A DNA stretch of 33,816 nucleotides, from the NCBI RefSeq assembly GCF_007678255.1, contig NZ_VEED01000031.1:1-33816 (forward strand), in the 5' to 3' direction. Every line of letters begins with the position of its first letter. Within the stretch, counting starts at the first letter, position 1. The notes beneath the pieces were generated by a model, which ran no database searches, had not been told where the DNA came from, and saw nothing but the letters and a program-made list of their open reading frames with translations. The position numbers were made by a program, and so were the translations under genes. This stretch comes from Bacillus sp. X1(2014) (GTDB lineage: Bacteria; Bacillota; Bacilli; Bacillales_B; DSM-18226). This document shows, piece after piece, positions 162 to 33,752 of the stretch.

Positions 162-266
162 GATTGTGAAATATTGTACTTACACTAACGGGTGCTTATG
201 TTGAAGATGGGATGGCTGAGGCTATCCCGTTTTCTTATTGTGCTAACGGGCAGAATAGATAAGAAG
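162..266 (+). repeat. Array repeat R1, complete, long left arm
   Basis: Extended left flank (GATTGTGAA, then TGTACTTACA), left arm CTAACGGGTGC at 184, hairpin GGGAT/ATCCC at 209-228 with a TTTTCTTATTG tail, and right arm CTAACGGGCAG from 243. The preceding gap (111-161) shows no gene, so its cassette appears lost. Confidence 0.85.
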
Positions 267-315
267 ATTACGACTCAATTGAATTAGGGAAATGACTATA
301 TAGAGGTGAAATTTT

Positions 316-645
316 ATGAATTTTAAACAAATGACAGAAGAAGAAAAACGTAAATTGCTTATTGCAATGTACTTTCTACGAAAAGGTTCACATCAATTAA
401 ATCGTTTACACGATGAATTTAGCCGTAGAGATAATGATGATGAAATAAAGGAAGCAATGGAAAAGGAAAATAACCTTTTTCGAGCAATAGCACGTTTTGA
501 TGATATGTACCTTTATTCAGAAGATGAAACTGAAAATGAGGAAATAGGAAAATTAGAGGATGAAATTTTTGAATGGATTGAGGATTACGGATTTACCGAG
601 GACATTAAGAAATATTTTGATAAGAATAGTATTATGTTCAGCTAA
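316..645 (+). CDS. Small acidic protein of unknown function
   Basis: 109 residues, strongly charged (runs of Glu, Lys, Asp), predicted helical and cytoplasmic, with no signal peptide or membrane segment. ATG at 316 is preceded by a good ribosome site, GAGGTGA. The stop codon TAA is formed by the CTAACGGG of repeat R2, so the coding end and the repeat overlap. I do not recognise the family. A small, acidic soluble protein in a single-gene cassette would fit an immunity or antidote protein, but that is context only. Confidence 0.75.
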   Translation: MNFKQMTEEEKRKLLIAMYFLRKGSHQLNRLHDEFSRRDNDDEIKEAMEKENNLFRAIARFDDMYLYSEDETENEEIGKLEDEIFEWIEDYGFTEDIKKYFDKNSIMFS

Positions 646-724
646 CGGGTGCAAGAGATTAAGTTCGAAAGCTGCTTCGGCAGCTTTTTGCTTGCTCCAC
701 TAACGAAGCAGTTTAGTTGAAGAA
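642..724 (+). repeat. Array repeat R2, complete
   Basis: Left arm CTAACGGGTGC overlaps the stop of the preceding gene. Hairpin AGCTGCTTCGGCAGCT with a T tail lies at 670-687. Right arm CTAACGAAGCAG plus TTTAGTTGAAGAA ends at 724. Confidence 0.85.
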
Positions 725-773
725 CCATATTTGTTAAACTTAAGGAAAAGGAAGAAAAGTTGAGGTTAGAAAA

Positions 774-1067
774 ATGTATGAATTTAAAGATGAGTTCGAG
801 AGAAAAGAAAAAAAGTTTAAGATTTACATTTTTTTATTTGTTATCTCTGTTTTAATACATACATTCATTGACATTTTTGACTTGGGAGTTGAAAAAGTTT
901 CTGGAGTTGGCATAGTTATTAGCCTTTTATTTTTTTGTGTTATCCTTTATTTTGGTTTGCGTAGAAAGTTTTGGGCTGAGGTTATGATTAAATTTTTTGT
1001 CTGGCTAAATATTATTTTATTGTTCCTCATTATTACTGTTAAGATTTTAGGTTTTAGTTCAAATTAA
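774..1067 (+). CDS. Small multi-pass membrane protein
   Basis: 97 residues. A charged N-terminus (about 1-16, rich in Lys and Glu) is followed by three hydrophobic segments near residues 17-35, 44-62 and 70-93. GAGGT about nine bases upstream supports the ATG at 774. It sits alone between repeats R2 and R3 on the same strand. I cannot assign a family; small membrane proteins of this size recur through the array. Confidence 0.7.
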   Translation: MYEFKDEFERKEKKFKIYIFLFVISVLIHTFIDIFDLGVEKVSGVGIVISLLFFCVILYFGLRRKFWAEVMIKFFVWLNIILLFLIITVKILGFSSN

Positions 1068-1084
1068 TCTTTAATGTTCTTAAA

Positions 1085-1146
1085 GTAACGGGGCAAGAGT
1101 TGAAGAACGGTAGCTGCTTCGGCAGCTTTTTTGCTTGCTCCGCTAC
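1085..1146 (+). repeat. Array repeat R3, right arm lost
   Basis: Left arm GTAACGGGGCAAGAG plus TTGAAGAA, hairpin AGCTGCTTCGGCAGCT with a long T tail, then only CGCTA of the right arm before unrelated sequence. Confidence 0.75.
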
Positions 1147-1255
1147 ATTTGACTAATATTATGCAAATTAGAGTAATGCCTCTGACGGGATTCGAAACCA
1201 ACAATAATAAGTGGAATAAACAGTACAACAATTACTGCGAAATTTCCTTCCATGG

Positions 1256-1280
1256 AGGGCTAACGGGATAGTTTTGCCCC
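1256..1280 (+). repeat. Decayed repeat fragment
   Basis: GGGCTAACGGGATAG followed by TTTTGCCCC keeps the CTAACGGG core, with GGGC/GCCC able to pair around it. It may be a remnant right arm or an independent hairpin. The rest of 1147-1255 shows nothing recognisable. Confidence 0.35.
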
Positions 1281-1331
1281 GATAACAAAAACTAACAGAA
1301 TGAAAACGATAATCTATAAAGGAGATTAAAT

Positions 1332-2558
1332 ATGCTGAAAAAGATACGGAAAATCCTTCAAGTACTCCTATTTGTATTTTTCGGCGCATGCTTTGTTTTG
1401 CTTCCGTGGAGTAATATTGACAGAACAGCAGCCGAAAAAAGGATGGTATTTGACCAGCAGCCCATCCAATACCCGATTCGTCAAAGTAATATTACTATGT
1501 ATACGGACGGAAAACAGTTAGTCAATCAATTATTCTCAGATATAAGGAAAGCAAAACATTACGTGTATATCAACTTTTTCTCTATAGCTGATGATAAAGT
1601 AAGTCATCAGTTTCTAGATTTATTGAGGCAAAAAAGCCAGGAGGGTGTAGTGGTATATTATGCAGTGGACAGGTTAGGTGGAATTTTACTAAAGGAAGAG
1701 GAAAGAGAATTATTGGTTAAAGCAGGAGTTCATTTTACGTTTTACAATAAGCCTGCTTTTCCTTATCTTTTTTCTTCTATTGATCATCGGAATCATCGTC
1801 GAATTTCAATTATTGATGGAATGATTGGGTACATTGGCGGATTTAACATCGGCAAGAAGTATATAGGAGAAAAAGCAAAACTCGGTCACTGGAGAGATTA
1901 TCACCTTCAAATACGAGGAGAGGGAGTTCAAGATCTAGAACATCAATTTGTGTCTGACTGGAAGAAAAACACAGAGCAACAGATTCCTATACACAGCGCG
2001 ACAAAGGAAAAGGGAGCAACCTCGCATCGATTTACTGCATATTACAGCGGAGAAAAACTTGGGCAAGATTATGCAAAGCTGTTTCATGAAGCAAAGGAGT
2101 CCATCATTATTCTAACACCTTATTTTATACCAAAAGACAGAACGATTTGGAACGCATTAATGGATGCAAGAAAAAGAGGAGTTCGTGTTAAAATTCTATT
2201 CTCACCTCATTCGGATGCACTGTTAGTTAAAGAAGCAGCCTATCCCTATATCCGTAAAGCAATAAAACAGGGAATAGAAGTATATGGTTATAAAAAGGGA
2301 GTGTTACACGGTAAAGTATTCTTGATTGATGATAATGTAATGATGGTTGGGACCGTAAATTTTGATTCGCGCTCATTTCATTTAAATGAAGAAATGAACT
2401 CCTATATTAATGACCCTGTTTTTATTTCTAAAATAAAGCCAGTCATCAATGAAGACATCCAGGATTCAAAGCGAGTAACATCCTCTGACGTCAATCAATT
2501 ATCCATAAAAGAAAAACTGAAAGAAAAGTTTGCAAAAATGATTGAGTATTATTTGTAA
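1332..2558 (+). CDS. Phospholipase D / cardiolipin synthase family protein
   Basis: 408 residues with one N-terminal membrane segment (about 7-26) and two PLD domains. The first active-site motif is H155-x-R157-x4-D162 within NHRRISIIDG. The second is canonical, H326-x-K328-x4-D333 within LHGKVFLIDD, followed by GTVNFDSRSF. Family members join phosphatidylglycerol molecules to make cardiolipin or hydrolyse phosphodiesters at the membrane. The Lys-to-Arg change in the first motif is unusual and may lower or alter activity. GGAG about nine bases upstream supports ATG 1332. A terminator of its own follows. Only decayed repeat pieces lie upstream, so it may be an older chromosomal gene. Confidence 0.85.
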   Translation: MLKKIRKILQVLLFVFFGACFVLLPWSNIDRTAAEKRMVFDQQPIQYPIRQSNITMYTDGKQLVNQLFSDIRKAKHYVYINFFSIADDKVSHQFLDLLRQKSQEGVVVYYAVDRLGGILLKEEERELLVKAGVHFTFYNKPAFPYLFSSIDHRNHRRISIIDGMIGYIGGFNIGKKYIGEKAKLGHWRDYHLQIRGEGVQDLEHQFVSDWKKNTEQQIPIHSATKEKGATSHRFTAYYSGEKLGQDYAKLFHEAKESIIILTPYFIPKDRTIWNALMDARKRGVRVKILFSPHSDALLVKEAAYPYIRKAIKQGIEVYGYKKGVLHGKVFLIDDNVMMVGTVNFDSRSFHLNEEMNSYINDPVFISKIKPVINEDIQDSKRVTSSDVNQLSIKEKLKEKFAKMIEYYL

Positions 2559-2643
2559 GAACTAAGTATTTTTATTTTAAGGAGTAGTAGTCTGCATTTT
2601 ATTAGAATAAATTAAATTACTGATACTAAAATAGAATGCTATG

Positions 2644-2675
2644 GAGAGGGAACATTGTTCCCTTCTCTTTTTTAT
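2644..2675 (+). terminator. Rho-independent terminator of the PLD gene
   Basis: GAGAGGGAAC/GTTCCCTTCTC stem with an ATT loop and one bulge, followed by TTTTTTATTT. It differs from the array hairpins. Between it and R4 there is no gene, only a short repeat-like piece (GCGAACGGGTGCTTT) at 2766-2780. Confidence 0.8.
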
Positions 2676-2805
2676 TTAGGCTATGTAATGGGGTACTCAT
2701 TTTTACTACCATTTAAGAACGATATTTTCTTACATATTCTGTGTTGAAATTGATCTTCATGGATGGCGAACGGGTGCTTTCCTTCAATAGAAATCAGCAA
2801 TGATC

Positions 2806-2893
2806 TTCAACTAACGGGTGCAAGAGTTGAAGAAAGGATTGCTGCTGCGATCCTTTTTTGTTATTCAGCTAACGAGCAGTTTAGTTGAAGAAG
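2806..2893 (+). repeat. Array repeat R4, complete
   Basis: Left end TTCAACTAACGGGTGC and TTGAAGAA, stem AGGAT (2835-2839)/ATCCT (2850-2854) plus a T tail, and right arm CTAACGAGCAG plus TTTAGTTGAAGAAG. The ends form the 11 bp inverted repeat. Confidence 0.9.
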
Positions 2894-2896
2894 AAA

Positions 2897-2905
2897 TGCT
2901 ATAAT
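2897..2905 (+). promoter_or_regulatory. Extended -10 promoter directly after R4
   Basis: TGCTATAAT matches the extended -10 consensus TGnTATAAT. It begins four bases after the repeat and 46 bases before the lipoprotein start. No good -35 is seen, as is usual for this promoter class. Confidence 0.6.
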
Positions 2906-2942
2906 TTTATTAATAAAAATTAAAAAAAAGTAGGAAAGACAA

Positions 2943-3803
2943 ATGAAGAATATTATAAAATTGACTCAAATCATCTTATTAAGTACATCAATCCTATTTT
3001 TGGGTGGATGTGTTTCTAAAAATGATTTAAAAAAGCCAGTTCGAGATTATCTAAAAACTAATTACGGATTTAGAGAGGATTTTCAAATACTTGCAGCAGA
3101 AAACAATTTTCTGGTAGATGATATTTACGATACTTATCTAAGAATAGATAAGCCATACCCAGCGTATCCAAGACTTGCTTTTGAAGGGGAAACTCACCTA
3201 GTTAAAATTGATAGTGATGATTTTTATTTAGAGATGTTTAAAGGTGCATATATTGAGCAACATCCTGATGTTATTCGTGAAACCAAGCAAATAATAAAAA
3301 AGTACGGGTTAGTAAAGTATACTCAAAAATTTGTTATTAAAGATGGAGAACCTGCATACATGTTCCCTTTCGATAATATTGAATTAAATATGATCTATTC
3401 AAAAGACTTATTAAAAGATTTTAAAAAGAGCCAAAAGATTGATACCAATGCTCTTTTACCTACATTGAAACCAAGTGATCCTCGGCGTGAAAATTATAAT
3501 TCGAGGTATATAGGTGTGGTGAATTTTTTATTTGAATTTGACATGAATAAAAATAAACATCCAATTCCAAAAGCTAAGGATTTAATAGTGGACTTTCAAC
3601 AAAGTGGGGTATTAACTAAAGGGATATACAACATTGATATGTTGGTAGATGATTCGAATCCTAAACATTCCGTAGGATGGGAGCATAATAATGTAGCTTT
3701 ATTTGAAGTTGATGAAAATGGTAAATATACTATAATTGCTACACCTAAATATGATGATCTAGATAACTCATACTTTTACGGTGATTATGTAGCTGAAAAA
3801 TAA
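2943..3803 (+). CDS. Putative lipoprotein
   Basis: 286 residues. The N-terminus is a lipoprotein signal peptide: Lys near residue 2, hydrophobic stretch about 7-20, then lipobox LGGC with the predicted lipidated Cys at residue 23. The mature part is mixed helix/strand, rich in Asp, Lys and Tyr, with no enzyme motif I recognise. It should be anchored on the outer face of the membrane. AGGAAAG before ATG 2943 is a plausible ribosome site. It forms a single-gene cassette between R4 and the short repeat R5, with its own extended -10. Confidence 0.75.
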   Translation: MKNIIKLTQIILLSTSILFLGGCVSKNDLKKPVRDYLKTNYGFREDFQILAAENNFLVDDIYDTYLRIDKPYPAYPRLAFEGETHLVKIDSDDFYLEMFKGAYIEQHPDVIRETKQIIKKYGLVKYTQKFVIKDGEPAYMFPFDNIELNMIYSKDLLKDFKKSQKIDTNALLPTLKPSDPRRENYNSRYIGVVNFLFEFDMNKNKHPIPKAKDLIVDFQQSGVLTKGIYNIDMLVDDSNPKHSVGWEHNNVALFEVDENGKYTIIATPKYDDLDNSYFYGDYVAEK

Positions 3804-3821
3804 AATGATAGGTATATTAAC

Positions 3822-3853
3822 TTGTTCAACTAACGGGTGCGTTAGTTGAGAAG
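3822..3853 (+). repeat. Array repeat R5, hairpin-less short form
   Basis: CAACTAAC-GGGTGC-GTTAGTTG: the left arm start is joined directly to the right arm end, giving a perfect 8 bp palindrome around GGGTGC. The internal hairpin and T tail are absent. Confidence 0.8.
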
Positions 3854-3921
3854 TAATGAACATTTTAAAGTCAAAATAACAAAAAGAAAAAACAAAATAA
3901 AATAAAAAAAGGAATTAAAAA

Positions 3922-4233
3922 ATGAAAATAATAAAATTGGTATGGGTTGCTTCAATCCTATTAGGCATATTATCAGGATGTTCCGAAGGACCTCCAATTG
4001 ACCATACGGAAGATAAAATAGTAGATGCAACCGTGATTAAAAAAGAACATGGAGATACGCAAAAATGGGAAATAACTCTTCAATACAAAGATATTGTCGT
4101 TGTATATGGATATGACCATTCAGATTATTATGATCACGTAAAAGAAGGAGACAAAGTGCCTGTTACATATACCAAAGGCTATACAAAAGAAAACAAATTA
4201 GAAACACAAAGTATTGATCCAGTCCATCTTTAA
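3922..4233 (+). CDS. Small putative lipoprotein
   Basis: 103 residues with a signal peptide and lipobox LSGC (Cys at residue 20). The mature domain is ~80 residues, beta-rich, reading like a small OB- or barrel-type extracellular domain (IVDATVIKK, WEITLQYKD, GDKVPVTY). GGAATT is a weak ribosome site before ATG 3922. R6 terminates the cassette. Function is not recognisable. It could be a surface immunity or binding protein, but only size and location suggest this. Confidence 0.7.
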   Translation: MKIIKLVWVASILLGILSGCSEGPPIDHTEDKIVDATVIKKEHGDTQKWEITLQYKDIVVVYGYDHSDYYDHVKEGDKVPVTYTKGYTKENKLETQSIDPVHL

Positions 4234-4246
4234 AAAAATGAGTTGT

Positions 4247-4335
4247 TGCACTAACGGGTGCTTATGTTAAACAAGGGATGGCTGTGGCGATCCCTTTTTC
4301 TTATTGTACTAACGAAGCAGGTTAGTGGAAGAAGG
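4247..4335 (+). repeat. Array repeat R6, complete
   Basis: Left arm CTAACGGGTGC (4251), stem GGGAT (4275-4279)/ATCCC (4290-4294) around GGCTGTGGCG, TTTTTCTTATTG tail, and right arm CTAACGAAGCAG plus GTTAGTGGAAGAAGG to 4335. One of the clearest copies. Confidence 0.9.
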
Positions 4336-4337
4336 TA

Positions 4338-4346
4338 TGCTATAAT
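4338..4346 (+). promoter_or_regulatory. Extended -10 promoter directly after R6
   Basis: TGCTATAAT starts two bases after the right arm, the same word and nearly the same offset as after R4. It would drive the YrvL-like gene at 4405. Confidence 0.6.
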
Positions 4347-4404
4347 GATGGGCGATAAATGTTATAAATTTGAAAGTTTACGAATAAGGAATTGTGACTA
4401 AGTA

Positions 4405-4860
4405 ATGAATCATAAAAATAAAAAAAATCGATTTCGAGATATGGATTTATTTGAAAAAGTATTGGTTATTACAGCTTTAACCCTCCTAGTTGTCATATCC
4501 TTTACGTTTGTTATAGGGAGTATATTCTTTGGGATTGTAGGCTTTTTTAATTTATTTGGAGTACGATATACGTCGCCATACTCCCTTATAGGATTTGTGA
4601 TGATGTTGTTTCTTTTTGGTGGTGTTGTGGATTTATTCTCTATAACTTTAATCGCATGGTCATCACGATATGTATCAGGTAAATATAAATTATTTATTAT
4701 ACGGATGGTTATTGATTGCACATTTACTTGGCTAGCATTGCATACAGTAGATGAATATATGGATAGTATTACAATTCCATTGAAAACAGAAATCATTGCC
4801 GTTTTATTATTATTCTTTATAGAAATTGCCTTTGATAATAGAGAAAAAACTAAAAAGTAA
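4405..4860 (+). CDS. YrvL-like membrane protein
   Basis: 151 residues with four hydrophobic segments (about 20-45, 55-80, 95-115 and 125-145). The patterns FGIVGFFNLFGV, SLIGFVMMLFLFGGVVDLFS and TVDEYMDSITIPLKTEI are what I recall for the YrvL family. YrvL in B. subtilis is a small membrane protein reported to regulate an alternative sigma factor. The role here is unknown. The ribosome site is weak (AAGGAA about 16 bases upstream). It is a single-gene cassette between R6 and R7. The family call is from memory of the pattern and was not searched. Confidence 0.65.
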   Translation: MNHKNKKNRFRDMDLFEKVLVITALTLLVVISFTFVIGSIFFGIVGFFNLFGVRYTSPYSLIGFVMMLFLFGGVVDLFSITLIAWSSRYVSGKYKLFIIRMVIDCTFTWLALHTVDEYMDSITIPLKTEIIAVLLLFFIEIAFDNREKTKK

Positions 4861-4881
4861 TTTTTACTTAAATGGTTTCTT

Positions 4882-4954
4882 CTTCAACTAATGGGGGCAA
4901 GAGTTAAAGAATGGGATGGCTGCGGCGATCTCATTTTCTTATTGTGAAGAAGGA
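4882..4954 (+). repeat. Array repeat R7, right arm truncated
   Basis: CTTCAACTAATGGGGGC left arm and GGGATGGCTGCGGCGATCTC hairpin with a TTTTCTTATTG tail. It then jumps to TGAAGAAGG, so the middle of the right arm is deleted. Confidence 0.8.
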
Positions 4955-5038
4955 TTTATCGATATACTTGAAGAAATATCTGTAAATATTGATACATCTG
5001 AGGTGAATCCGATTGAAATACGAAGAAATCGAGAATAA
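4946..5038 (+). pseudogene. Possible C-terminal gene remnant
   Basis: From the truncated R7 an open frame runs 30 codons (EEGFIDILEEISVNIDTS and onward) to TAA at 5036-5038, overlapping the next start. The residue pattern looks like a real protein tail. No proper start or ribosome site exists except an ATG inside the repeat hairpin at 4916. I read it as the 3' end of a lost cassette gene. Confidence 0.35.
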
Positions 5039-5351
5039 CAATAATGATTATTACATTGAACAAATAAACTCCAAAAACAAAGAAAATGTAGTTAAAGGAT
5101 TGTTGGGATTAGCGTTATATGGTTCTGACTTTGAATTTATTCAAGAGACATTAGTGAATTTTAGCAAAAGTGAAGATGAGAATATTCGAGGTATAGCTAT
5201 ACTTGGTTTTGGTCACATAGCAAGATTATATGGAAAAATTGACAAAGATGTTGTGATGCCTATTGTTCAAAATGGGCTAAAAGACAAAAGCGAAATTGTT
5301 AAAGGACAATCAACCGCAGCCTTAGATGATATTAACTTTTTTACTGAATGA
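5013..5351 (+). CDS. HEAT-repeat-like small protein, probable immunity type
   Basis: 112 residues, all helical. Two HEAT-like units are visible: KGLLGLALYGSDFEFIQ, and NIRGIAILGFGHIARLYGK followed by IVQNGLKDKSEIVKGQS and ALDDI. HEAT proteins bind other proteins through stacked helices. Short HEAT proteins of this kind often occur among toxin-immunity genes. The start is TTG at 5013, with GAGGTGAA at 4999-5006. It is followed by R8. Family confidence is good; the immunity role is inferred from context. Confidence 0.75.
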   Translation: MKYEEIENNNNDYYIEQINSKNKENVVKGLLGLALYGSDFEFIQETLVNFSKSEDENIRGIAILGFGHIARLYGKIDKDVVMPIVQNGLKDKSEIVKGQSTAALDDINFFTE

Positions 5352-5363
5352 TGAGTTTTTCTT

Positions 5364-5454
5364 GTTAAGCTAACGGGGTGCTTTGGTGAAGATTGAGTTG
5401 CGGCACGCAGCTCTTTTTTTTCGTTGAACAACTAACGGGGCAGGTTAGTTGAAG
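5364..5454 (+). repeat. Array repeat R8, complete
   Basis: GCTAACGGGGTGC left arm; stem GAGTTGCG/CGCAGCTC (5395-5413), which differs in sequence from R6 but still pairs; T tail; right arm AACTAACGGGGCAG plus GTTAGTTGAAG. Confidence 0.9.
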
Positions 5455-5461
5455 TAAAATA

Positions 5462-5470
5462 TGCTAGAAT
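5462..5470 (+). promoter_or_regulatory. Extended -10 promoter after R8
   Basis: TGCTAGAAT, one mismatch from TGnTATAAT, lies seven bases after the right arm and 37 bases before the next start. Confidence 0.5.
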
Positions 5471-5506
5471 TAAAGTAAATTATTTAGTGAACGGTGGAGT
5501 TAAAAA

Positions 5507-5977
5507 ATGCTGAACTTGTCGGGGAAGGTGGCTGTATATCAACTTGGATTGAGTATAGGGTATTTTAAACTTCCTAAAGTAGTTGAATGGGTTGATTTAA
5601 CCATATTACAATTGGACTCTTCTGATATTCCTAATCAATTGTACGAAGTTTCGTTATCGAGTCATAAAAAAATAGATGACGTTATCAGCCTTTTAAGTGA
5701 AATTACCAGAGGAAATTACATAGAAACTGCATCAAAAGTTATATTAGGTCTTCTGTGCAAATCATTTGAGAAAAAAGAAATCGAAATTCAACAAGTGGTC
5801 ACTTTAATGTATAGATTAGCTTGGGAACGAAATATTGAAGATGAAATATTTTCAAAAATAAATGGATTAGACGCAGACTATGAAATGGCTGTTGATGGAT
5901 ATGGAGATATGAAAAGTGTGAAAAAAGAAATACAGGTATTCTTAGGTAGATATGAAATGTACAGTGAGTTAATATAA
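5507..5977 (+). CDS. Uncharacterised helical protein, immunity-like
   Basis: 156 residues, soluble and predicted mostly helical. The C-terminal part (INGLDADYEMAVDGYGD followed by a helix ending FLGRYEMY) resembles small immunity-type proteins whose family I cannot name. ATG 5507 has GGTGGAG upstream (5493-5499). It is a single-gene cassette between R8 and R9 with its own -10-like element. No catalytic motif or signal peptide is visible. Function is unknown. Confidence 0.7.
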   Translation: MLNLSGKVAVYQLGLSIGYFKLPKVVEWVDLTILQLDSSDIPNQLYEVSLSSHKKIDDVISLLSEITRGNYIETASKVILGLLCKSFEKKEIEIQQVVTLMYRLAWERNIEDEIFSKINGLDADYEMAVDGYGDMKSVKKEIQVFLGRYEMYSELI

Positions 5978-5983
5978 TGCCTG

Positions 5984-6066
5984 CTTAACTAACGGAGGCT
6001 TTGTTAAGGGCGATAATCGCTGCGACAGTCATTTTTTCTTGTTGAACTAACGAAGCAGGTTAGCTA
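5984..6066 (+). repeat. Array repeat R9, complete, weak hairpin
   Basis: TTAACTAACGGAGGC left arm, imperfect stem with core ATCGCTGCGACAGTC and TTTTTTCTTGTTG tail, and right arm CTAACGAAGCAG plus GTTAGCTAG. Confidence 0.8.
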
Positions 6067-6151
6067 GTTTTTCCATAATTTTCAGTTAAAAGTTGTATAT
6101 AAATATGTAAGCTTTTCTTATACGAAATTTTTATATCTGAGGTAACTAACG

Positions 6152-6430: not shown

Positions 6431-6443
6431 CAGAACATGCGAA

Positions 6444-6537: not shown

Positions 6538-6584
6538 ATAAGCTGATAAACTAAGGGTAACGAAATAAGAAAGGGTATTTTGTA

Positions 6585-27470: not shown

Positions 27471-28478
27471 ATGGAGAAAGGCAATCAGGTACAGCTTACA
27501 TCAGCAGAGATAACCGCTCTTTGGACATCCTATATTAATGATACTGCCATTGCTTGTCAGTTTAAATACTTTTTAACCATAGTTGAGGATGAAGAGATTA
27601 AAGCATTAGTCAAACATGCTTTTGGTATTGCTCAAGGAAATCTTAAAACACTAACTGAGATTTTCAACAAAGAAAAGTATCCAATACCTTATGGATTTAA
27701 ACTTATTGAGGATGTAAATATAAATGCTCCTAGGTTGTATTCAGACACATATTTTTTGAATTACCTTCATCATGCATCACAAATTGCTTTGCAAGGATAC
27801 AGTATCCATCTGTCAGTATCAGTTAGGGCAGATGTTTACAGTCATTTTAGTGAGTGTATTTCACAATTAATAAATTTTCTTAGGGATGTAAAAGAGCTTT
27901 TATTATCTAAAGGTCTTTATATCAGGTCTCCTTATTTACCTATACCAGAGGATATTGATTTTATTAAAAAACAAAGTTTTCTTAAAGGCTTTTTTGGGGA
28001 AAAGAGACCATTAGTAGGTACAGAAATATCAAACCTCTTTGTTAATTTTCAAAGAAATGCTTTTGGAGTTGAAACCTTAATAGGATTTAGTCAAGTTGCA
28101 CAGTCAAAAGAGGTAGCTAAGTTTTTATTTAGAGGTGTAGAAATTGCAAAAAAGCATTGTGATGTTTTTGGAGCTATCCTTAAAGAGGATTACCTTCCAT
28201 TACCTATGTCAGGGGATTCAAATGTAACAGAGTCTACAGCTTTTACTTTTTCAGATAAACTTATGATGTACTATACTACATCCCTTATTGCCCTAAGTAT
28301 TGGATTTTATGGTACAAGTATGGCGATGAGTCCTAGAAGGGATATAGGTCTGCATTATGTAGGACTTACTGCTGAAATAGCTATGTATGCTGAAGATGGG
28401 GCTAATATAATGATTAAAAATGGATGGCTAGAACAGCCTCCTATGGCTCCTGATAGGGATGAATTAATAAATAATTAG
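27471..28478 (+). CDS. DUF3231-family protein
   Basis: 335 residues, nearly all helical, made of two similar ~165-residue halves: LTSAEITALWTSYINDTAIA with HAFGIAQGNLKTLTEIFNKE, and GTEISNLFVNFQRNAFGVE with RGVEIAKKHCDVFGAILKE. This is the DUF3231 layout, a ferritin-like helical protein common in spore-forming bacilli with unknown role. ATG 27471 has GGAGG at 27459-27463; the longer frame from 27408 lacks one. It lies after R34 and has its own terminator. Confidence 0.85.
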   Translation: MEKGNQVQLTSAEITALWTSYINDTAIACQFKYFLTIVEDEEIKALVKHAFGIAQGNLKTLTEIFNKEKYPIPYGFKLIEDVNINAPRLYSDTYFLNYLHHASQIALQGYSIHLSVSVRADVYSHFSECISQLINFLRDVKELLLSKGLYIRSPYLPIPEDIDFIKKQSFLKGFFGEKRPLVGTEISNLFVNFQRNAFGVETLIGFSQVAQSKEVAKFLFRGVEIAKKHCDVFGAILKEDYLPLPMSGDSNVTESTAFTFSDKLMMYYTTSLIALSIGFYGTSMAMSPRRDIGLHYVGLTAEIAMYAEDGANIMIKNGWLEQPPMAPDRDELINN

Positions 28479-28498
28479 AATCAATTTCAATCCATATT

Positions 28499-28535
28499 TA
28501 AGTCCTTCTGCATAAAAACAGAAAGGGCTTATTAT
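28499..28535 (+). terminator. Terminator of the DUF3231 gene
   Basis: AAGTCCTTCTG pairs with CAGAAAGGGCTT (one bulge, one G-T pair) around an eight-base loop, followed by ATTATTTTATT. Confidence 0.65.
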
Positions 28536-28574
28536 TTTATTACATTAGGACTAAAGCAACTTCCTTCCAGATAC

Positions 28575-28657
28575 TTTGTGAAGATTTTCGCTTAAACTAA
28601 TGGGGGCAAGAGTGAAATAAAGCAACGCTATCGTGAGATGCGTTGCTTATTTATTCT
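28575..28657 (+). repeat. Array repeat R35, left half with unusual hairpin
   Basis: CTTTGTGAAGATTTTCGCTT plus AAACTAATGGGGGC, stem AGCAACGC/GCGTTGCT (28621-28647) and TATTTATTC tail. The right arm is replaced by the recombinase remnant. Confidence 0.75.
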
Positions 28658-28696
28658 AAAAAAACTTCCTATATAATTCCTGCCTGATGCTTCCGC

Positions 28697-28944
28697 TTAA
28701 CTGGGCATATTTTCACTTTTTTCATGACCTAATAGGCTTTGAATAACATCTAGAGGTGCTCCATTATTCAATAAGTGGGTTGCATAGCTGTGCCTTAGTT
28801 GGTGCGGATGAATGCCTTTGTTAATGCTGGCACGGTTTGAAATTCGCTTAATAATGTATCGCATCTGGGCAATGCTCTCGAAAAGCCTTCAATGCGTTTA
28901 TCAGATTCATACGTTTCCCATGCTTGAGATAATAACAAGTTCAT
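28697..28944 (-). pseudogene. Tyrosine recombinase (integrase) with internal deletion
   Basis: Read on the minus strand, ATG 28944 after GGGGAGAG gives [20 protein letters not shown], the N-terminal core-binding start of a tyrosine recombinase. Near 28879 it jumps, out of frame, to the C-terminal catalytic part [17 protein letters not shown] and [12 protein letters not shown], which holds the H-x-L-R-H box and the second His. Most of the catalytic domain, including the first Arg, is deleted and the active-site Tyr region is altered, so it is inactive. It is the only integrase trace in the window and lies between half repeats R35 and R36. Confidence 0.85.
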
Positions 28945-28976
28945 CTCTCCCCAAAAAATTCTTTTTTCAGGAATTA

Positions 28977-29044
28977 TTGACCGTTTTTATAAAATTGAAA
29001 CGGCGGTTCTTATTAAGCTAAAGAAGCAGGTTAATTGAAGAAGG
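28977..29044 (+). repeat. Array repeat R36, right half with hairpin
   Basis: CCGTTT/AAACGG hairpin (28981-29003), tail GCGGTTCTTATTAAG, and right arm CTAAAGAAGCAG plus GTTAATTGAAGAAGG. Confidence 0.75.
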
Positions 29045-29057
29045 AATTAGAATTTTA

Positions 29058-29066
29058 TGGTAAAAT
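29058..29066 (+). promoter_or_regulatory. Extended -10 promoter after R36
   Basis: TGGTAAAAT (TGnTAAAAT) lies 14 bases after the right arm and 61 bases before the next gene. Confidence 0.45.
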
Positions 29067-29126
29067 ATTATCATTAATTTTCTTTGTTACAGGGGATGTT
29101 TAGATTGAAAAACAAGGAGGGATAAG

Positions 29127-29423
29127 ATGACTAAGAAGAAAAACGGTATATGGTTTTTAAGTGGTTACGGGATAGCACTTATTTTACTTTTATATTTTGG
29201 GTTGAATGGTTTGGCTGTAACTACATTGGGCGATACTTTCCCAAATCCAAGGTTTATTACTGTTTTAGCTGTATTTATTATAGTTGCTTGGTCCATTGGA
29301 TTGGGAACTCGTCGATACTTAAAATGTCTCACTAATGAAACACGAAATAAAATGAGAAATTCCTTTTTAGGTATTACAGTATTCAGTTGGGTAATTACTA
29401 TAATTCTTTTTTCGGTTTCTTGA
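29127..29423 (+). CDS. Small multi-pass membrane protein
   Basis: 98 residues with three hydrophobic segments (about 9-31, 43-61 and 79-97) separated by a basic loop (GTRRYLKCLTNETRNKMR). AAGGAGGG before ATG 29127 is a strong ribosome site. It is a single-gene cassette between R36 and R37. The family is not recognised. Confidence 0.7.
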   Translation: MTKKKNGIWFLSGYGIALILLLYFGLNGLAVTTLGDTFPNPRFITVLAVFIIVAWSIGLGTRRYLKCLTNETRNKMRNSFLGITVFSWVITIILFSVS

Positions 29424-29479
29424 ATATCTAGGAAGTATTACTCCTTACAAAATAGCATGGAAATCTTAGAAACTTACTT

Positions 29480-29570
29480 ATTTCACTAACGGGTGCATTA
29501 CTTAAAGAACGTTCGGCTGCTCAAAAAAAGCAGCCGATATTGTGTTGAATGGCTGAGGTTAACCAAAGAA
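29480..29570 (+). repeat. Array repeat R37, unusual hairpin
   Basis: TTTCACTAACGGGTGC left arm, perfect stem CGGCTGCT/AGCAGCCG around seven A (29514-29536), then a diverged right arm TGAGGTTAACCAAAGAAG. Confidence 0.75.
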
Positions 29571-29599
29571 GCGAAGGATGTGGACTTCATCCGAATAGA

Positions 29600-30013
29600 C
29601 TAGGCTTCTGTGGACTGATGCTCACAAAGGAGCATCCATGACGTTCCAAACCTGTCTCTCAGCTGAGCAAAACGCAAAGCGAAAAAGGTTTCTTCCATGG
29701 GCATAAAGATTTCTCCTCCTTCAGAAAGCAAGGTATAAATCCTCTCCGCCTCTTCTGCATTGTATACCCTGAGTGTCAGATAGACACTCCGCATAGGCTC
29801 AGCGTTGGGGATATCGGCTCCTCTTAGCACCGTGTCCCCAATCTCGATGGTAGCATGAAGAATGTCGTTTTCCCGACCTACCGGAACGTTCGTCGGATCT
29901 GGCAGTTGTTTGAAAGCCATCATCGACGTTATCCTGCCTCCGAGATGATGTTCATAGAACCGAAAAGCCTGTTCGCAAACTCCGCGATAGTTAATGTAAA
30001 TATCGAGCTTCAT
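29600..30013 (-). CDS. PhnB-like VOC-family protein
   Basis: 137 residues on the minus strand. YINYRGVCEQAFRFYEHHLG opens the domain; ILHATIEIGDTVLRGADIP and later FFALRFAQLRDRFGTSWML complete it. This is the PhnB/3-demethylubiquinone-methyltransferase-like branch of the VOC superfamily. The reaction is unknown. AAAGGAGAG precedes the ATG at 30013. The gene runs against the array and is visibly richer in G and C, so like 20821-21294 it looks separately acquired. Confidence 0.8.
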   Translation of the reverse strand: MKLDIYINYRGVCEQAFRFYEHHLGGRITSMMAFKQLPDPTNVPVGRENDILHATIEIGDTVLRGADIPNAEPMRSVYLTLRVYNAEEAERIYTLLSEGGEIFMPMEETFFALRFAQLRDRFGTSWMLLCEHQSTEA

Positions 30014-30230
30014 TGAATAATCTCTCCTTTATCATTTTGGTTGTAGGTCTTGAAAGATATCTTATTATTCAGTATAAACTGCATATGAATGCCAATACAA
30101 TTATGGGTTTTATGAAGTCGACAGGTTGGTGAACAGCGTCTCCAAAAATCGTCAGTGCTCCGCTATAGGGGCGATGCTTCAATAAAAAAAGAATGGCCAC
30201 CAGGATATTTATGTTGAAATATAGAACGAA
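30014..30230 (+). other. Intergenic region, no gene assigned
   Basis: Holds the upstream region of the minus-strand PhnB-like gene. On the minus strand around 30130-30215 short frames such as QHKYPGGHSFFIEASP look protein-like but end at once. It may be a remnant. Nothing firmer can be said. Confidence 0.3.
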
Positions 30231-30279
30231 GATTGTGAAGGTTTTTACTTAAACAAACGAAGCAGTTTAGTTGAACAAG
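30231..30279 (+). repeat. Array repeat R38, hairpin-less short form, long left arm
   Basis: GATTGTGAAGGTTTTTACTT plus AAACAAACGAAGCAG and TTTAGTTGAACAAG: left flank joined directly to a right arm. Confidence 0.8.
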
Positions 30280-30295
30280 AAATAGAAAAATATGG

Positions 30296-30324
30296 TTGAC
30301 CAATTTAATAATACATAATAAAAT
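30296..30324 (+). promoter_or_regulatory. Sigma-A promoter of the T-box gene
   Basis: TTGACC (30296-30301), 17-base spacer, TAAAAT (30319-30324): the best -35/-10 pair in the window, placed about 20 bases before the T-box leader. Confidence 0.75.
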
Positions 30325-30345
30325 TGAGAAAATTACAAAATTTAA

Positions 30346-30576
30346 AAACACAGTGACTGGGAGTATGAAGGAATGTTTATTGTTTAGAGAGCTGTCGGCT
30401 GGTGAAAGACAGTCAATAAAGTCATCAACTCGCCCGCGAGTGGTAAGGCTGATATGTAAGTCTTAACGGTTTACATCCGTAATCAGTTATAAAGTGGATT
30501 TATTGTAATAGCAAATTAACAAGAGTGGTACCACGATGGTCTATCGTCTCTTATGAGATGGTAGGCTTTTTATTTT
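30346..30576 (+). promoter_or_regulatory. T-box riboswitch leader
   Basis: T-box landmarks occur in order. AGTA lies at 30362. A stem I arm TTTATTG/CAATAAA (30376-30382, 30414-30420) and CTGTC/GACAG (30392-30412) enclose GGTGAAAG. ACTCG/CGAGT forms a following hairpin. The T-box core AAGAGTGGTACCACG lies at 30521-30535, and terminator stem GTCTATCGTCTC/GAGATGGTAGGC (30539-30566) is followed by TTTTTA. Uncharged tRNA binding would prevent termination. The specifier may be ATC (Ile, 30424-30426), consistent with UGGU pairing to a discriminator A, but this is uncertain. Confidence 0.85.
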
Positions 30577-30606
30577 AAACAATTGGTGAGGCGAGGAGGA
30601 TATATT

Positions 30607-31164
30607 ATGGGAACAGTTTATTCATCAATACTTTCAAAACATGAAGAATTTATAAGAAAACAACGGATTTTTTTCGTTGGTTCAGCACCACTATCAACAG
30701 ACGGACATGTTAACATTTCCCCTAAAGGTCATGATGTACTAAGGATATTTTCACCAATTGAGGTCGCTTATTTAGATTTAACTGGTAGTGGAAATGAAAC
30801 AAGTGCCCATTTAATAGATAACGGTAGAATTACTTTTATGTTCTTAGCTTTTGAAGGTCCCCCGATGATTTTACGTCTATACGGAAGAGGTAAGATAGTA
30901 TTACCAGACTCACCAGAATGGGATGACATGGCTAAGCACTTTGATATCCTACCTGGTTCTCGTCAAATAATTCATGCAAAGATTGAAACGGTAAAAACGT
31001 CATGTGGTTTTAGTGTTCCATTTTATTCATACAATGGTGAACGAGATACTCTTCAACAGTGGGCTACCAATAAAAGCGAACAAGACTTAGAAGAATATCG
31101 TAAAAAGAAAAATTCTATTAGTATGGATGGAATAGTTACACCAATTGGGGAAAAGTTTATCTAG
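30607..31164 (+). CDS. PNPOx-family flavin-type protein under T-box control
   Basis: 185 residues. RIFFVGSAPLSTDGHVNISP and KGHDVLRIFSPIEVAYLDLT, then NGRITFMFLAFEGPPMILRL and YGRGKIVLPDS, identify a pyridoxamine-5'-phosphate-oxidase-like split barrel of the PPOX subgroup. It would bind FMN or F420; the substrate is unknown. ATG 30607 has GAGGAGG upstream, while an in-frame TTG at 30583 lies ahead of that site. It is preceded by the T-box leader and followed by R39. Control of such a protein by tRNA charging is unusual and suggests a link to amino-acid supply. Confidence 0.85.
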   Translation: MGTVYSSILSKHEEFIRKQRIFFVGSAPLSTDGHVNISPKGHDVLRIFSPIEVAYLDLTGSGNETSAHLIDNGRITFMFLAFEGPPMILRLYGRGKIVLPDSPEWDDMAKHFDILPGSRQIIHAKIETVKTSCGFSVPFYSYNGERDTLQQWATNKSEQDLEEYRKKKNSISMDGIVTPIGEKFI

Positions 31165-31196
31165 CTTAATAACGTTAAATAGTAATAGTCCTTGAT

Positions 31197-31280
31197 GAGC
31201 TAACGGGTGCTTAAGTTAAAAATGGGATGGCTACGGCTATCCCGTTTTCTTATTTTGCTAACGGGGCAGGTTGGTTAAAG
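31197..31280 (+). repeat. Array repeat R39, complete
   Basis: TGAGCTAACGGGTGC left arm, stem GGGATGGCTACGGCTATCCC (31224-31243), TTTTCTTATTTTG tail, and right arm CTAACGGGGCAG plus GTTGGTTAAAG. Confidence 0.9.
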
Positions 31281-31336
31281 ATGAGTAACCCAGACCAAAA
31301 GATTAACGTTAAATATTACAGGGGGAGTGATGGAAT

Positions 31337-31689
31337 ATAAAAAATATAATTGGTATTATCTTATTGTTTTCCTTTATTTTAGTCGGATGCAGTTTAAAGA
31401 CACAGACATTGCCTGAATTTTATATAAAAGACCTTGGTGATGTAACTAAGATAGTTATAGTAAAAGGCAGTACGGGCAATAAAAAAACAATCGTAGAAAA
31501 GGCTGTTATTGAGGGATTTTTAACTAAGATAAAGGAAATAAAGTTTATTCCAGAAGAAAATCAAGAAGAAAGAAAAGGTTGGAGTTACTCTATTAGACTT
31601 TATGAAGATGCCGAGAAAACCTTTCAAAACCAGATATTTATCCAATTGTTGATGATTTTTATAAAAACCTCAATGTACCAGAAAACTAA
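31337..31689 (+). pseudogene. Lipoprotein gene, damaged at both ends
   Basis: A complete lipoprotein signal (IKNIIGIILLFSFILVGCS) reads from an ATA codon at 31337, six bases after GGGGGAGTGA, where an ATG would be expected. The next in-frame start-type codon, TTG 31364, lies inside the signal. The body continues to YEDAEKTFQ, after which the true tail DIYPIVDDFYKNLNVPEN lies in another frame, pointing to a small deletion near 31628. Both defects suggest a dead gene, though ATA initiation is possible. The family is unknown. Confidence 0.65.
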
Positions 31690-31696
31690 TTTTCCT

Positions 31697-31828
31697 TATT
31701 CAACTAACAGGTGCTTTAGTTAAACACTGGGGTACGATACAGGAACGTTAATTTAGGCAGGGGTATTTGAGATAAAGAATTATCGGACGAAGGCGATCTT
31801 ATTTTCTTATTTGACTAACGGAGCAGTG
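31697..31828 (+). repeat. Array repeat R40, expanded (130 bp)
   Basis: TATTCAACTAACAGGTGC left arm, ~45 extra bases, a second left-like piece (GGGTATTTGAGATAAAGA), core CGGACGAAGGCGATC with a TTTTCTTATTTG tail, and right arm CTAACGGAGCAG. It may be two units partly merged. Confidence 0.7.
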
Positions 31829-31869
31829 CTGGATTTTTGTAGAATAAAGATATGAGGGGGGATTGGTTT

Positions 31870-32409
31870 ATGGTAATTAAGAATAAAAAAATCCTTTATG
31901 TTGTTTTAGTAATCATAGTACTTATTTTAATAACATTCATATTAAACGCTACGAAGAGAGAGTATGGTAATGATGAAGAATCCATTTTAAAGGTGATTAG
32001 ATCAATTGACGGATATAACTCTCAATCTATAAAAATATTAGAAATTAAGGATATAAAAAATGAACGGGTTGTTCCATTTTTATTAAATAATAATCCTGGT
32101 TATATTCAGTTTACCAAGAATAAAAGAGGGAACTATGAATGGAATCATATTGAGAAGATGGAAAATCAGTCTTTCGCTTCGTTCCTGGTCAATCTCAATG
32201 GTGAGGAGTTACCTAATTTAAAGTTTTTGTTCGTGACTAATGAAGATAATGAGATTGCAAAAGTGGAATTAGACGTGAACGGACAAATCTTTAAAAAGGA
32301 ACTTAAAGTACACGAAAGTTCAGTAGCGTGGATTGATTTGCCTAAACATAAATCTGCGGAATATAAATATAAGTATTATGATGAAAATGGGAATTTAATC
32401 GAAGAATAG
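31870..32409 (+). CDS. Membrane-anchored protein with outer domain
   Basis: 179 residues: a basic N-terminus (VIKNKK) and one hydrophobic segment (about 8-27), then an ~150-residue strand-rich domain (NPGYIQFTKNKRGNYEWNH, FVTNEDNEIAKVELDVNG) and acidic tail. It should face outside. GGGGGGA at 31857-31863 fits ATG 31870; the upstream in-frame ATG at 31852 overlaps that site. It is a single-gene cassette between R40 and R41. The family is not recognised. Confidence 0.7.
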   Translation: MVIKNKKILYVVLVIIVLILITFILNATKREYGNDEESILKVIRSIDGYNSQSIKILEIKDIKNERVVPFLLNNNPGYIQFTKNKRGNYEWNHIEKMENQSFASFLVNLNGEELPNLKFLFVTNEDNEIAKVELDVNGQIFKKELKVHESSVAWIDLPKHKSAEYKYKYYDENGNLIEE

Positions 32410-32455
32410 AAAAAGGTTTATTGTCTTTATTTATACAAAGGACATCATTGGTGCT

Positions 32456-32487
32456 TGAAATAACGGGGCAGGTTACTTTAAGAAGGA
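32456..32487 (+). repeat. Array repeat R41, single arm
   Basis: TGAAATAACGGGGCAG plus GTTACTTTAAGAAGG: right arm only, no hairpin. Confidence 0.7.
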
Positions 32488-32552
32488 ATTAACCCCATTT
32501 ACCAAAATCCTGTAGTAAACATTGTTGTAAATAGGGTATGGGGGAGATGTAC

Positions 32553-33023
32553 TTGAAAGAGAAGATTTTAATAATGTTTTTTATGTTCTTTATACTTTTC
32601 GTAGTAGTTGTTCCAATTGTATTTGCCAGCTCACCTTTTGTTATTGGTGAAGAAAAAGCAGGAGGCTAGCAATACACTGTAATAAAAGAACAAAACACCT
32701 TTACTTGGAAAATTGGTCATCAAGACAACATTTCTACTGTCGTAGAGAATAAGGATAATAACGAAGATTTGGAGCGTTTTAGAATTGCGGTTGAGGATAT
32801 TAATATGGAAATATTTAAAATAATAATATCTGCATCATATTTTTTAATTGTTGTTATAACAACGTTATTTTTCTACAAGAATAACAAACAAATATCTAAA
32901 GGTATTGGAGCAATTTTTACTATATTCGCAGGGATTGCATTGAATTATACAATAGTAACTTCTATTAACCTAAATACTGCATCTCAGGATGCGAAGTTTT
33001 ATTATTCGATGCTAACCAATTAA
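32553..33023 (+). pseudogene. Membrane protein gene with one in-frame amber codon
   Basis: From TTG 32553 (GGGGGAGA upstream) the frame gives a signal or membrane segment (IMFFMFFILFVVVVPIVFA), then GEEKAGG, TAG at 32667-32669. It then continues in the same frame with QYTVIKEQNTFTWKIGH, two further hydrophobic segments and TAA at 33021. Without the TAG it would be one 156-codon protein: signal segment, short outer part, two membrane passes. A recent nonsense mutation is the simplest reading. The family is unknown; it resembles other small array membrane proteins in layout. Confidence 0.7.
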
Positions 33024-33031
33024 GAATTTAA

Positions 33032-33122
33032 ATTCCACTAACGGGTGCTTGAGTTTAAGATCTGAGCTGTCATCGTGGCAGCTCTTTCTTGTTGAACTAA
33101 CGAAGCAGTTTAGTGCAACAAG
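33032..33122 (+). repeat. Array repeat R42, complete
   Basis: TTCCACTAACGGGTGC left arm, perfect stem GAGCTG/CAGCTC (33064-33084), TTTCTTGTTG tail, and right arm CTAACGAAGCAG plus TTTAGTGCAACAAGG. Confidence 0.9.
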
Positions 33123-33181
33123 GAATTTCAATAAAGATACAATATTATATAGTAAAATAAGCTTAAAAGGCTGTGTTAGAT

Positions 33182-33673
33182 ATGAAGGTTTCTATAATTG
33201 TTGCGATGGATAGGAAGAGAGTAATTGGCAAAGATAATGACATTCCTTGGAGAATTCCAAAGGATTGGGAGTATGTTAAAAATATTACAAAGGGACATTC
33301 AATTATATTGGGTAGAAAGAACCTTGAGTCAATTGGAAGAGCTTTACCTGGTAGAAGAAATATAATTCTGACAAGGGATAAGGGCTTCAATTTTGACGGT
33401 TGTGAAATTGTCCACTCAATCGAAGCTGTTTTTGAGTTATGTAAAAATGAAGAAGAGATTTTTATTTTCGGAGGGGAGCAGATTTATAATATTTTCCTTC
33501 CTTTTGTTGGGAAGATGTACATCACAAAAATTCATTATGAATTTAAAGGAGATACATTTTTTCCTGATGTGAATTTTGATGAATGGAATGAAGTTTCTAT
33601 TGAAAAAGGGATTATGAATGACAAAAACCCTTATAACTACTTTTTTCACGTTTATGAAAGAAAACTTTCTTAA
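33182..33673 (+). CDS. Dihydrofolate reductase
   Basis: 163 residues, full length for the enzyme that reduces dihydrofolate to tetrahydrofolate with NADPH. Motifs in order: SIIVAMDRKRVIGKDNDIPW (substrate loop), the acidic active-site residue Asp28 in IPKDWEYV, HSIILGRKNLESIG, LPGRRNIILTRD and IFIFGGEQIYNIF (cofactor loop). It resembles Bacillus cereus-group DHFR, which is known to be poorly inhibited by trimethoprim. ATG 33182 has a weak ribosome site (AAAAGG); an in-frame GTG at 33173 is possible. It is a single-gene cassette between R42 and R43, probably additional to a chromosomal folA. Confidence 0.9.
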   Translation: MKVSIIVAMDRKRVIGKDNDIPWRIPKDWEYVKNITKGHSIILGRKNLESIGRALPGRRNIILTRDKGFNFDGCEIVHSIEAVFELCKNEEEIFIFGGEQIYNIFLPFVGKMYITKIHYEFKGDTFFPDVNFDEWNEVSIEKGIMNDKNPYNYFFHVYERKLS

Positions 33674-33752
33674 GCTAAAAGAGTGTAAGATTTTAACAGA
33701 GAGTTGCAACAGCAGCTCTTTTTTCTTTATGGAACTAACGGAGCAGGTTAGC
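33672..33752 (+). repeat. Array repeat R43, complete
   Basis: AAGCTAAAAGAGTG left arm, stem GAGTTGC/GCAGCTC around AACA (33701-33718), TTTTTTCTTTATG tail, and right arm AACTAACGGAGCAG plus GTTAGC. After it only 60 bases remain, with no gene that can be called. Confidence 0.85.

Follow-up and report, generated by a model that had tools for sequence, protein, structure and literature searches.

How is a long row of small genes, set apart by copies of one repeat, put together in a Gram-positive bacterium? The question is raised by contig NZ_VEED01000031.1 of Bacillus sp. X1(2014), analysed over its full 33,816 nucleotides (the window), which a sequence-only reading had likened to an integron that gains and shuffles single-gene cassettes through its repeat. 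One study describes integrons as extremely rare in Firmicutes: IntegronFinder 2.0 found a few attC clusters there, and the only complete integron was that of Limnochorda pilosa (PMC9024848). A review lists Firmicutes among the integron-carrying phyla (PMC8618304). No account of arrays such as the one described here was found in the open-access PMC literature, a search that left subscription papers and most preprints outside its reach.

Some cassettes of this array recur in related genomes next to differing neighbours, which makes it likely that the array was put together and shuffled by a recombinase of its own; we put at about 84% the probability that a dedicated, Xer-like tyrosine recombinase assembled and reshuffled it by acting on paired core sites. 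The proposed gain and shuffling of cassettes through the repeat is thus supported, and the likeness to integrons holds as one of analogy; the array is very probably not a member of the integron family, and its site is a pair of cores.

The repeat is a pair of cores around a hairpin

The repeat unit in the window measures ~94 bp and consists of two ~20-bp palindromic cores, L (AACTAAC-GGGTGC-TTTAGTT) and R (AACTAAC-GRRGCAG-GTTAGTT), which lie in the same orientation and flank a terminator-like hairpin, with a run of T's between the cores on its 3' side; the starts of the two cores were mostly 45-64 bp apart in a fuzzy pattern scan. Across 797 near-full elements the consensus reads TCTTCAACTAACGGGTGCTTTAGTTGAAGA - hairpin - TTTTTTCTTATTGAACTAACGGGGCAGGTTAGTTGAAGAAGG. 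The ~85 bp repeat first reported is therefore real, although its unit is longer and double. With a refined nucleotide profile and a cut-off of E<=0.01, the window contains 36 copies, every one of them on the + strand; 28 reach E<=1e-4 and 22 are near full length. At the same E<=0.01 threshold the first nucleotide profile gave 39 matches on the + strand and none on the - strand, and the fuzzy pattern scan counted 39 single cores, so that the original figure of about 43 copies was fair, if slightly high. A covariance model built from 17 hand-picked copies, a check that had been proposed at the outset, recovered the repeat throughout the window. As a chance control, all loci and the window were reversed in sequence, and the profile then gave no match at E<=1e-4.

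Window copies are ~60-89% alike among themselves, and columns of the hairpin stem covary (for instance 36-49 and 38-47). Over positions 1-12000, terminator-like hairpins were enriched relative to shuffled sequence (16 vs 4.6 +/- 2.1); promoter-like sites were not (48 vs 53.2). In an Rfam scan of the window the element reached no family threshold, a T-box being the sole match.

The expected layout of one gene between successive repeats was confirmed for the array, although not every gene is flanked: the stretch from 11.72 to 16.93 kb, which encodes a regulator-like protein, an M20 peptidase and a major facilitator superfamily (MFS) transporter, yielded no element call. A site-free block within this region (12339-16687) was perhaps inserted later.

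Elements cluster on one strand in Bacillales genomes

When each species was represented by a single genome, a pattern scan gave at least 120 stretches with the site, the genera among the matches listed being Peribacillus, Neobacillus, Viridibacillus, Psychrobacillus, Paenisporosarcina, Sporosarcina, Lysinibacillus, Cytobacillus, Metabacillus and others. In a strictly filtered search of 299 genomes sampled evenly across the order, with 14 candidates scored per genome, 90 had an element match at E<=1e-6. When up to 150 candidates per genome were scored in five genomes, these held 102, 119, at least 150, 65 and 55 copies. Fifteen plasmid records, from Peribacillus, Cytobacillus, Mesobacillus and Sporosarcina, also carry the element; none of 50,697 phage records contained a copy at E<=1e-3, and one 26-base core pattern had no exact counterpart in viral contigs. 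Among the loci compared, the window cassettes match those of Neobacillus and Bacillus sp. OV166 well.

Two long arrays in Bacillus sp. OV166 were resolved with the refined profile: 149 of 149 sites are on the - strand at 3.88-4.04 Mb (160 kb), and 131 of 131 on the + strand at 3.06-3.28 Mb (220 kb). Outside them, a single covariance-model match was found in 400 kb of the same contig, sampled as 20 windows of 20 kb; the repeat thus resides mainly in arrays, as the sequence-only reading required. GC skew in this genome is negative at 0.10 Mb; all 10 windows sampled between 0.43 and 3.48 Mb show positive skew, and all 9 between 3.56 and 6.3 Mb negative skew. From this switch we infer that both arrays run co-directionally with replication and lie near the terminus. 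A group of eight - strand sites at 2.88-2.90 Mb (locus L209) is an exception.

Loci were then pooled (154 loci, 1.93 Mb, together with the window; L122-L151 were left out, as were 27 pattern-scan loci of the five genomes that had been taken as longer stretches, some of which lay outside those stretches). In this set 1,082 sites were on the majority strand of their own locus and 5 on the minority strand; the median interval between sites was 645 bp, and in 679 of 762 intervals the longest open reading frame followed the orientation of the sites, in keeping with the shared direction of genes and repeats that had been described in the window. In the scan for single cores, those of both kinds shared one orientation per locus, 1,667 vs 9.

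Cassettes change neighbours at both cores

The 797 near-full elements were compared for similarity of their flanks (>=80% over >=120 bp): 66 pairs had a similar neighbour on the upstream side only, 61 on the downstream side only, and one on both, counts that omit pairs with merely weak similarity on the other side. The sole both-sides pair belongs to a single Cytobacillus citreus genome, where its members lie on separate scaffolds. A fixed cassette order, which would have spoken against the cassette interpretation, was thus not found. As an example, window segments 4945-5377 (95% identity) and 10724-11161 (94%) are adjacent in OV166 (L156), in reversed order and across one element; in the tblastn-stage comparison of loci the same two shared stretches spanned 4945-5449 and 10458-11232.

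The positions at which shared DNA begins and ends were then mapped. Elements make up 4.6% of the DNA in this comparison; of the 352 ends of shared segments, 103 lay inside an element or no more than 12 bp from one in both sequences. Among 168 high-identity segments clear of contig ends, 22 had both ends in elements and 53 had one; the 3' ends within elements were in the L core (24), the hairpin (8) or the R core (18), and the 5' ends in the R core (24), the hairpin (16) or the L core (7). Change-point analysis gave a summed weight of 31.7 of 41 to the L region for pairs with a common upstream gene, and of 27.6 of 37 to the R region for pairs with a common downstream gene. Together, the segment ends and change-points in L and R indicate that both cores are exchange points. 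In some cases the hairpin goes with the gene upstream, in others with the gene downstream, and often with neither.

Two kinds of footprint are compatible with exchange between an R and an L core: tandem hairpins, at window positions 7854-8006 and in locus L037, and single-core junctions from gene to gene, as at window positions 30242-30280. The tandem hairpins of the window may, judging from their sequence, be the scar of an excised gene. Two of the Peribacillus frigoritolerans plasmids compared were colinear across most of the stretch and hence uninformative.

A distinct clade of Xer-like recombinases lies within the arrays

A scan of five genomes and one plasmid with PF00589, followed by tblastn, identified a family of tyrosine recombinases inside the arrays, with full-length copies 74-99% identical to the query. 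The recombinase that was to be looked for at the array edge was thus found in relatives, although it lies within the arrays, and the window copy is a remnant. The gene is antisense to the sites in 10 of 10 loci, with an L site and hairpin 3' of it; on the 5' side, eight of the loci have an R-type site called at E<=0.03, one has a weak one, and in one the site is visible yet uncalled. Five of the ten genes are intact, those of L162, L188, L003, L001 and the window being broken, and that of L001 is distant (38%). In a second set of 30 recombinase loci, one of them common to the ten, 48 sites ran against the recombinase strand and 1 with it; nine of the 30 had no sites. By eye, a conserved block upstream of the gene, AGGaATTATTgCC..TAT.gAAat, was present in 27 of 31 rows, two of which represent one locus. 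In Paenisporosarcina HGH0030, protein-identical copies of the recombinase (L138 and L143) are ~88 kb apart. A recombinase on a Mesobacillus foraminis plasmid (L121:38881-39795) was dropped as a candidate; it has the same direction as the cassettes and falls outside the clade.

The residues R, K, H, R, H and Y, which we take to be the catalytic motif of tyrosine recombinases, are invariant in 26 of 26 recombinases. Three of these proteins scored 208-224 bits with the XerA model, one of them passing its cut-off of 220, and 200-208 bits with the XerD and XerC models, whose cut-offs are 330 and 335; housekeeping XerD of the same genomes reached 363-389 bits with its own model. The closest solved structures by sequence were archaeal Xer (3e-34) and XerD (1e-33), with IntI4 weaker (3e-16), and a predicted structure of middling quality (predicted local distance difference test 72, predicted template modelling score 0.50) had XerA as its best PDB match. 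In a tree of 37 rows, which included no IntI, 19 array recombinases formed one clade (100/100 support) on a long branch, to which the housekeeping Xer proteins encoded by these genomes do not belong.

Sites were present in 39 of 64 genomes bearing the recombinase vs 51 of 235 others (n=299, p=5.5e-9, kinship ignored), where family membership meant >=52% identity and 10 genomes with only more distant matches were uncounted. A recombinase subclade at 65-68% is found near cores with other arms, CAATC-GGGCGC and CAATC-GGGCAG; these are clear in one genome only (G229, loci L268 and L269), with 8 L-like cores on one strand and 0 on the other. The same core family is weaker in a further genome (G178, L266 and L267).

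A probable dedicated recombinase and the alternatives

We infer that the array recombinase moves the cassettes and acts on duplex cores. Because a single palindromic arm sequence fits a single recombinase, the enzyme would bind both arms of each core, with strand exchange in the 6-7 nt spacer of the double-stranded cores. Exchange of R to L would excise or insert the gene, exchange of L to R the hairpin, or both could move jointly; the R core beside the recombinase would be the preferred entry point and hence attI-like. Since the window recombinase is reduced to fragments, its array would move only with recombinase supplied in trans.

The best-surviving alternative, though an unlikely one, is that the array is a true integron, in which an IntI-type integrase recombines attC sites folded from single strands. 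An antisense integrase beside an attI-like site, one-gene cassettes and near-uniform orientation would all suit it, and RNAalifold on the 17-copy alignment proposed an attC-like stem that pairs the outer arms (1 of 12 pairs changed on both sides). If one folded strand were the site, variable arm positions should remain complementary. In up to 707 elements, however, the outer arms did not covary ((5,86) z -0.8; (2,89) z -0.7; three further outer pairs z -0.8 to 1.8), and their variable positions were complementary at chance level only; a fully folded attC site is on that account disfavoured. An inner pair, (23,67), does covary (z 6.0); four other inner pairs gave z -2.3 to 1.8, and within the R core (63,87) gave z 8.1. 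The three array recombinases scored 95.9, 86.7 and 96.5 bits with the IntI model TIGR02249, below its cut-off of 265 and below the 146-154 bits of housekeeping XerD from the same genomes. Furthermore, crossover in integrons is not known to occur outside the right-hand simple site, whereas segment ends here fall in both L and R cores.

Sedentary chromosomal integrons nonetheless resemble these arrays in having a tyrosine recombinase antisense to, and directed away from, the cassettes and adjoining an attI-like site, in their long one-orientation runs of small, diverse genes with changing order, and in the occurrence of recombinase-less arrays (comparable to clusters of attC sites lacking an integrase, or CALIN). 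They differ in that the recombinase here is Xer-like and not IntI, that the site comprises two cores which both take crossovers and whose outer arms lack covariation, that many genes are followed by a terminator-like hairpin, and that the hosts are Bacillales.

A shade less credible is an intergenic repeat, terminator-like or resembling a miniature inverted-repeat transposable element, that spread by transposition while homologous recombination between its copies shuffled the genes. It would account for the hairpin in the middle, for the inverted ends of the whole element and for the copies outside arrays. Copies ~60-89% alike are, however, an expectedly poor substrate for such recombination, and the concentration of in-element breakpoints in the two cores, the recombinase clade embedded in the arrays and the clustered, one-stranded sites all speak against this reading.

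Least credible of the three, Xer-dependent dif modules, in which host XerC/XerD would move the cassettes and the array recombinase would be an unrelated passenger, could draw on the layout of two arms around 6-7 nt, which we take to be dif-like, and on the Xer-like array recombinase, but are disfavoured by palindromic arms whose one sequence fits one recombinase, by the shared orientation of both cores, by the co-occurrence of recombinase and sites, and by a related recombinase of another subclade lying near cores with other arms. Modules of the dif type are flanked by oppositely oriented cores, an arrangement not seen in the per-locus core counts given above.

Two further systems invite comparison. 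The recombinase-associated acquired interbacterial defence (rAID) arrays of Bacteroidales, as we understand them, also bring together repeats, a tyrosine recombinase and rows of small genes of which some resemble immunity genes; their cargo is dominated by interbacterial immunity genes, whereas the cargo here is broad, with one above-cut-off colicin-immunity match among 40 window proteins and fragments in a Pfam scan. The plasmid dif (pdif) modules of Acinetobacter likewise place gene modules between short Xer-type cores and shuffle them (PMC6449649, PMC13141974); the arrays described here differ in holding a candidate dedicated recombinase, in their one-orientation cores with palindromic arms, and in forming long chromosomal arrays as well as occurring on plasmids.

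Several observations weigh against assembly by the array recombinase. Neither end lay in a recognised element for 93 of the 168 shared segments, and a search for insertion of a single cassette between colinear arrays found none. That the hairpin often accompanies neither neighbour calls either for R x L exchange despite unlike spacers or for two events. In 25 recombinase-bearing genomes the site model matched nothing, and 51 genomes with sites lacked a recombinase match; scattered copies occur outside the OV166 arrays, for example at 1.70, 2.22, 4.36 and 6.27 Mb. The covarying inner pair would be compatible with a partly folded site, homologous recombination between repeats could explain single events, and recombination is known here from its traces alone.

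Cores flank Gram-positive resistance genes

Core strings appear in published primers for vectors or cat genes. The Cat1c and Cat2c series, used to amplify cat from pC194 according to PMC4403831, match the L core (Cat1c, as reverse complement) and the R core (Cat2c). In pC194 itself, an R core (1984-1951) and an L core with hairpin (1109-1079) enclose cat (1260-1907), which is antisense to the sites; 200 base shuffles of pC194 gave no core match. In pKKS825 and pRIVM4293 the order is R - dfrK - R - element - MazG gene - L, and in pUSA04-2-SUR5 dfrG lies between an R core (2415-2446, E 3.9e-5) and an L core (2998-3026, E 9.6e-4). Only the R core before dfrG was called in the Enterococcus plasmid pE508-2, where IS1216 follows the gene. 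A 31-base core query matched 87 of 72,556 plasmid records at E<=10, 22 of them from Staphylococcus and Mammaliicoccus; ten of these are annotated with dfrK and twelve are pC194-sized, cat being confirmed among the twelve in pC194 alone.

The dihydrofolate reductase (DHFR) encoded at the end of the window is 82% identical to DfrK and 83.5% to DfrG, and the DNA match between its cassette and dfrG starts at the R core. Since cat of pC194, dfrK and dfrG lie between cores of the same kind, they likely came from such arrays. No ancestor array with a near-identical copy turned up, although no dedicated search for one was made.

We consider it somewhat more likely than not that Bacillales possess a second, independently evolved integron-like capture system, in which an Xer-derived recombinase works on paired duplex cores and a genome can hold as many as hundreds of cassettes, and that its environmental arrays were the source of staphylococcal and enterococcal cat (pC194), dfrK and dfrG. 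If so, large capture arrays exist in this order that would be expected to escape tools built on IntI and attC. The origin of the three resistance genes becomes a directly testable question, because all three are bounded by R and L cores, or by two R cores, and the window DHFR shares 82% identity with DfrK; the arrays would also supply a candidate system for site-specific recombination in Gram-positive hosts, along with a large reservoir of uncharacterised small genes. At positions 3917-4000 of another locus (L283), an L-like core adjoins a stretch of ~70-84 bp that recurs across hundreds of plasmids, among them those from Enterococcus, Escherichia and Salmonella.

Features of the window

Table 1. 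Coordinates of elements, cores, selected genes and recombinase-linked features in the window.
Feature	Position	Strand	Basis or remark
Cassette array; 36 co-oriented elements separated by genes	162..33763	+	profiles, covariance model, core scan
Element, L core 183, R core 241	179..262	+	E 3.1e-15
Element; next cassette recurs at 96-98% in Neobacillus niacini F8 (locus L114)	636..724	+	
Partial element, L core + hairpin	1078..1145	+	refined profile
Element	2804..2894	+	E 1e-20
Lone L core between two genes, without hairpin	3824..3852	+	pattern scan, profile
Element	4245..4335	+	refined profile
Cassette gene, YrvL family	4405..4860	+	Pfam scan
Partial element, L core + hairpin	4881..4944	+	refined profile
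Element	5364..5455	+	refined profile
Element	5985..6065	+	refined profile
Element	6446..6537	+	refined profile
Cassette gene, colicin-immunity family PF09204	7011..7310	+	Pfam scan
Lone R core between two genes	7311..7349	+	refined profile
Tandem hairpin modules, L - hairpin - hybrid core - hairpin - R	7854..8006	+	two matches, 7856-7931 and 7924-8002
Element	8491..8580	+	refined profile
Element	9041..9133	+	refined profile
Cassette gene, DUF7660	9183..9437	+	Pfam scan
Element	9439..9529	+	refined profile
Element	10129..10220	+	E 3e-21
Element	11141..11232	+	refined profile
Element	11643..11723	+	refined profile
Element	16934..17024	+	refined profile
Element	17852..17939	+	refined profile
Element	18534..18626	+	refined profile
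L core	19336..19374	+	refined profile
Partial element, R core	21402..21447	+	first profile only, E 0.001; outside the 36
Cassette gene, zinc-type dehydrogenase	21492..22484	+	Pfam scan
Element, short middle	22497..22568	+	refined profile
Partial element	22900..22953	+	refined profile
Partial element	25324..25396	+	refined profile
Element	26492..26583	+	refined profile
Cassette gene, glyoxalase family; 94% copy in OV166	26672..27109	+	Pfam scan, segment comparison
L core + hairpin, 3' side of recombinase remnant	28591..28653	+	E 0.0012-0.0021; outside the 36
Array-recombinase remnant retaining just residues 1-20 and 203-278, spread over more than one frame	28659..28935	-	antisense to cassettes
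Conserved recombinase-linked block (AGGAATTATTGACC..), precedes attI-like R core	28936..29000	+	
attI-like R core, 5' side of recombinase remnant	29001..29045	+	refined profile
L core + partial hairpin	29480..29521	+	refined profile
Hybrid single core, left flank L-type, spacer and right arm R-type	30242..30280	+	sequence, profile
Pyridoxamine-oxidase-like gene cassette with own T-box leader (30344-30554)	30344..31164	+	Rfam, Pfam
Element	31196..31282	+	refined profile
L core	31698..31733	+	refined profile
Partial element	31762..31827	+	refined profile
R core	32448..32487	+	refined profile
Element preceding DHFR cassette	33033..33124	+	refined profile
DHFR cassette	33173..33673	+	identity to DfrK and DfrG (see text)
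Element following DHFR cassette	33668..33751	+	refined profile
GATTGTGAAGAAATGTACTTAAAC-like motif	151-192, 10101-10142, 16906-16947, 19308-19349, 25295-25336, 27292-27333		

A fragment of a serine resolvase N-terminal domain lies inside the array at positions 11713-11904. The motif in the last row of Table 1 immediately precedes some L cores and is present in other genomes too.

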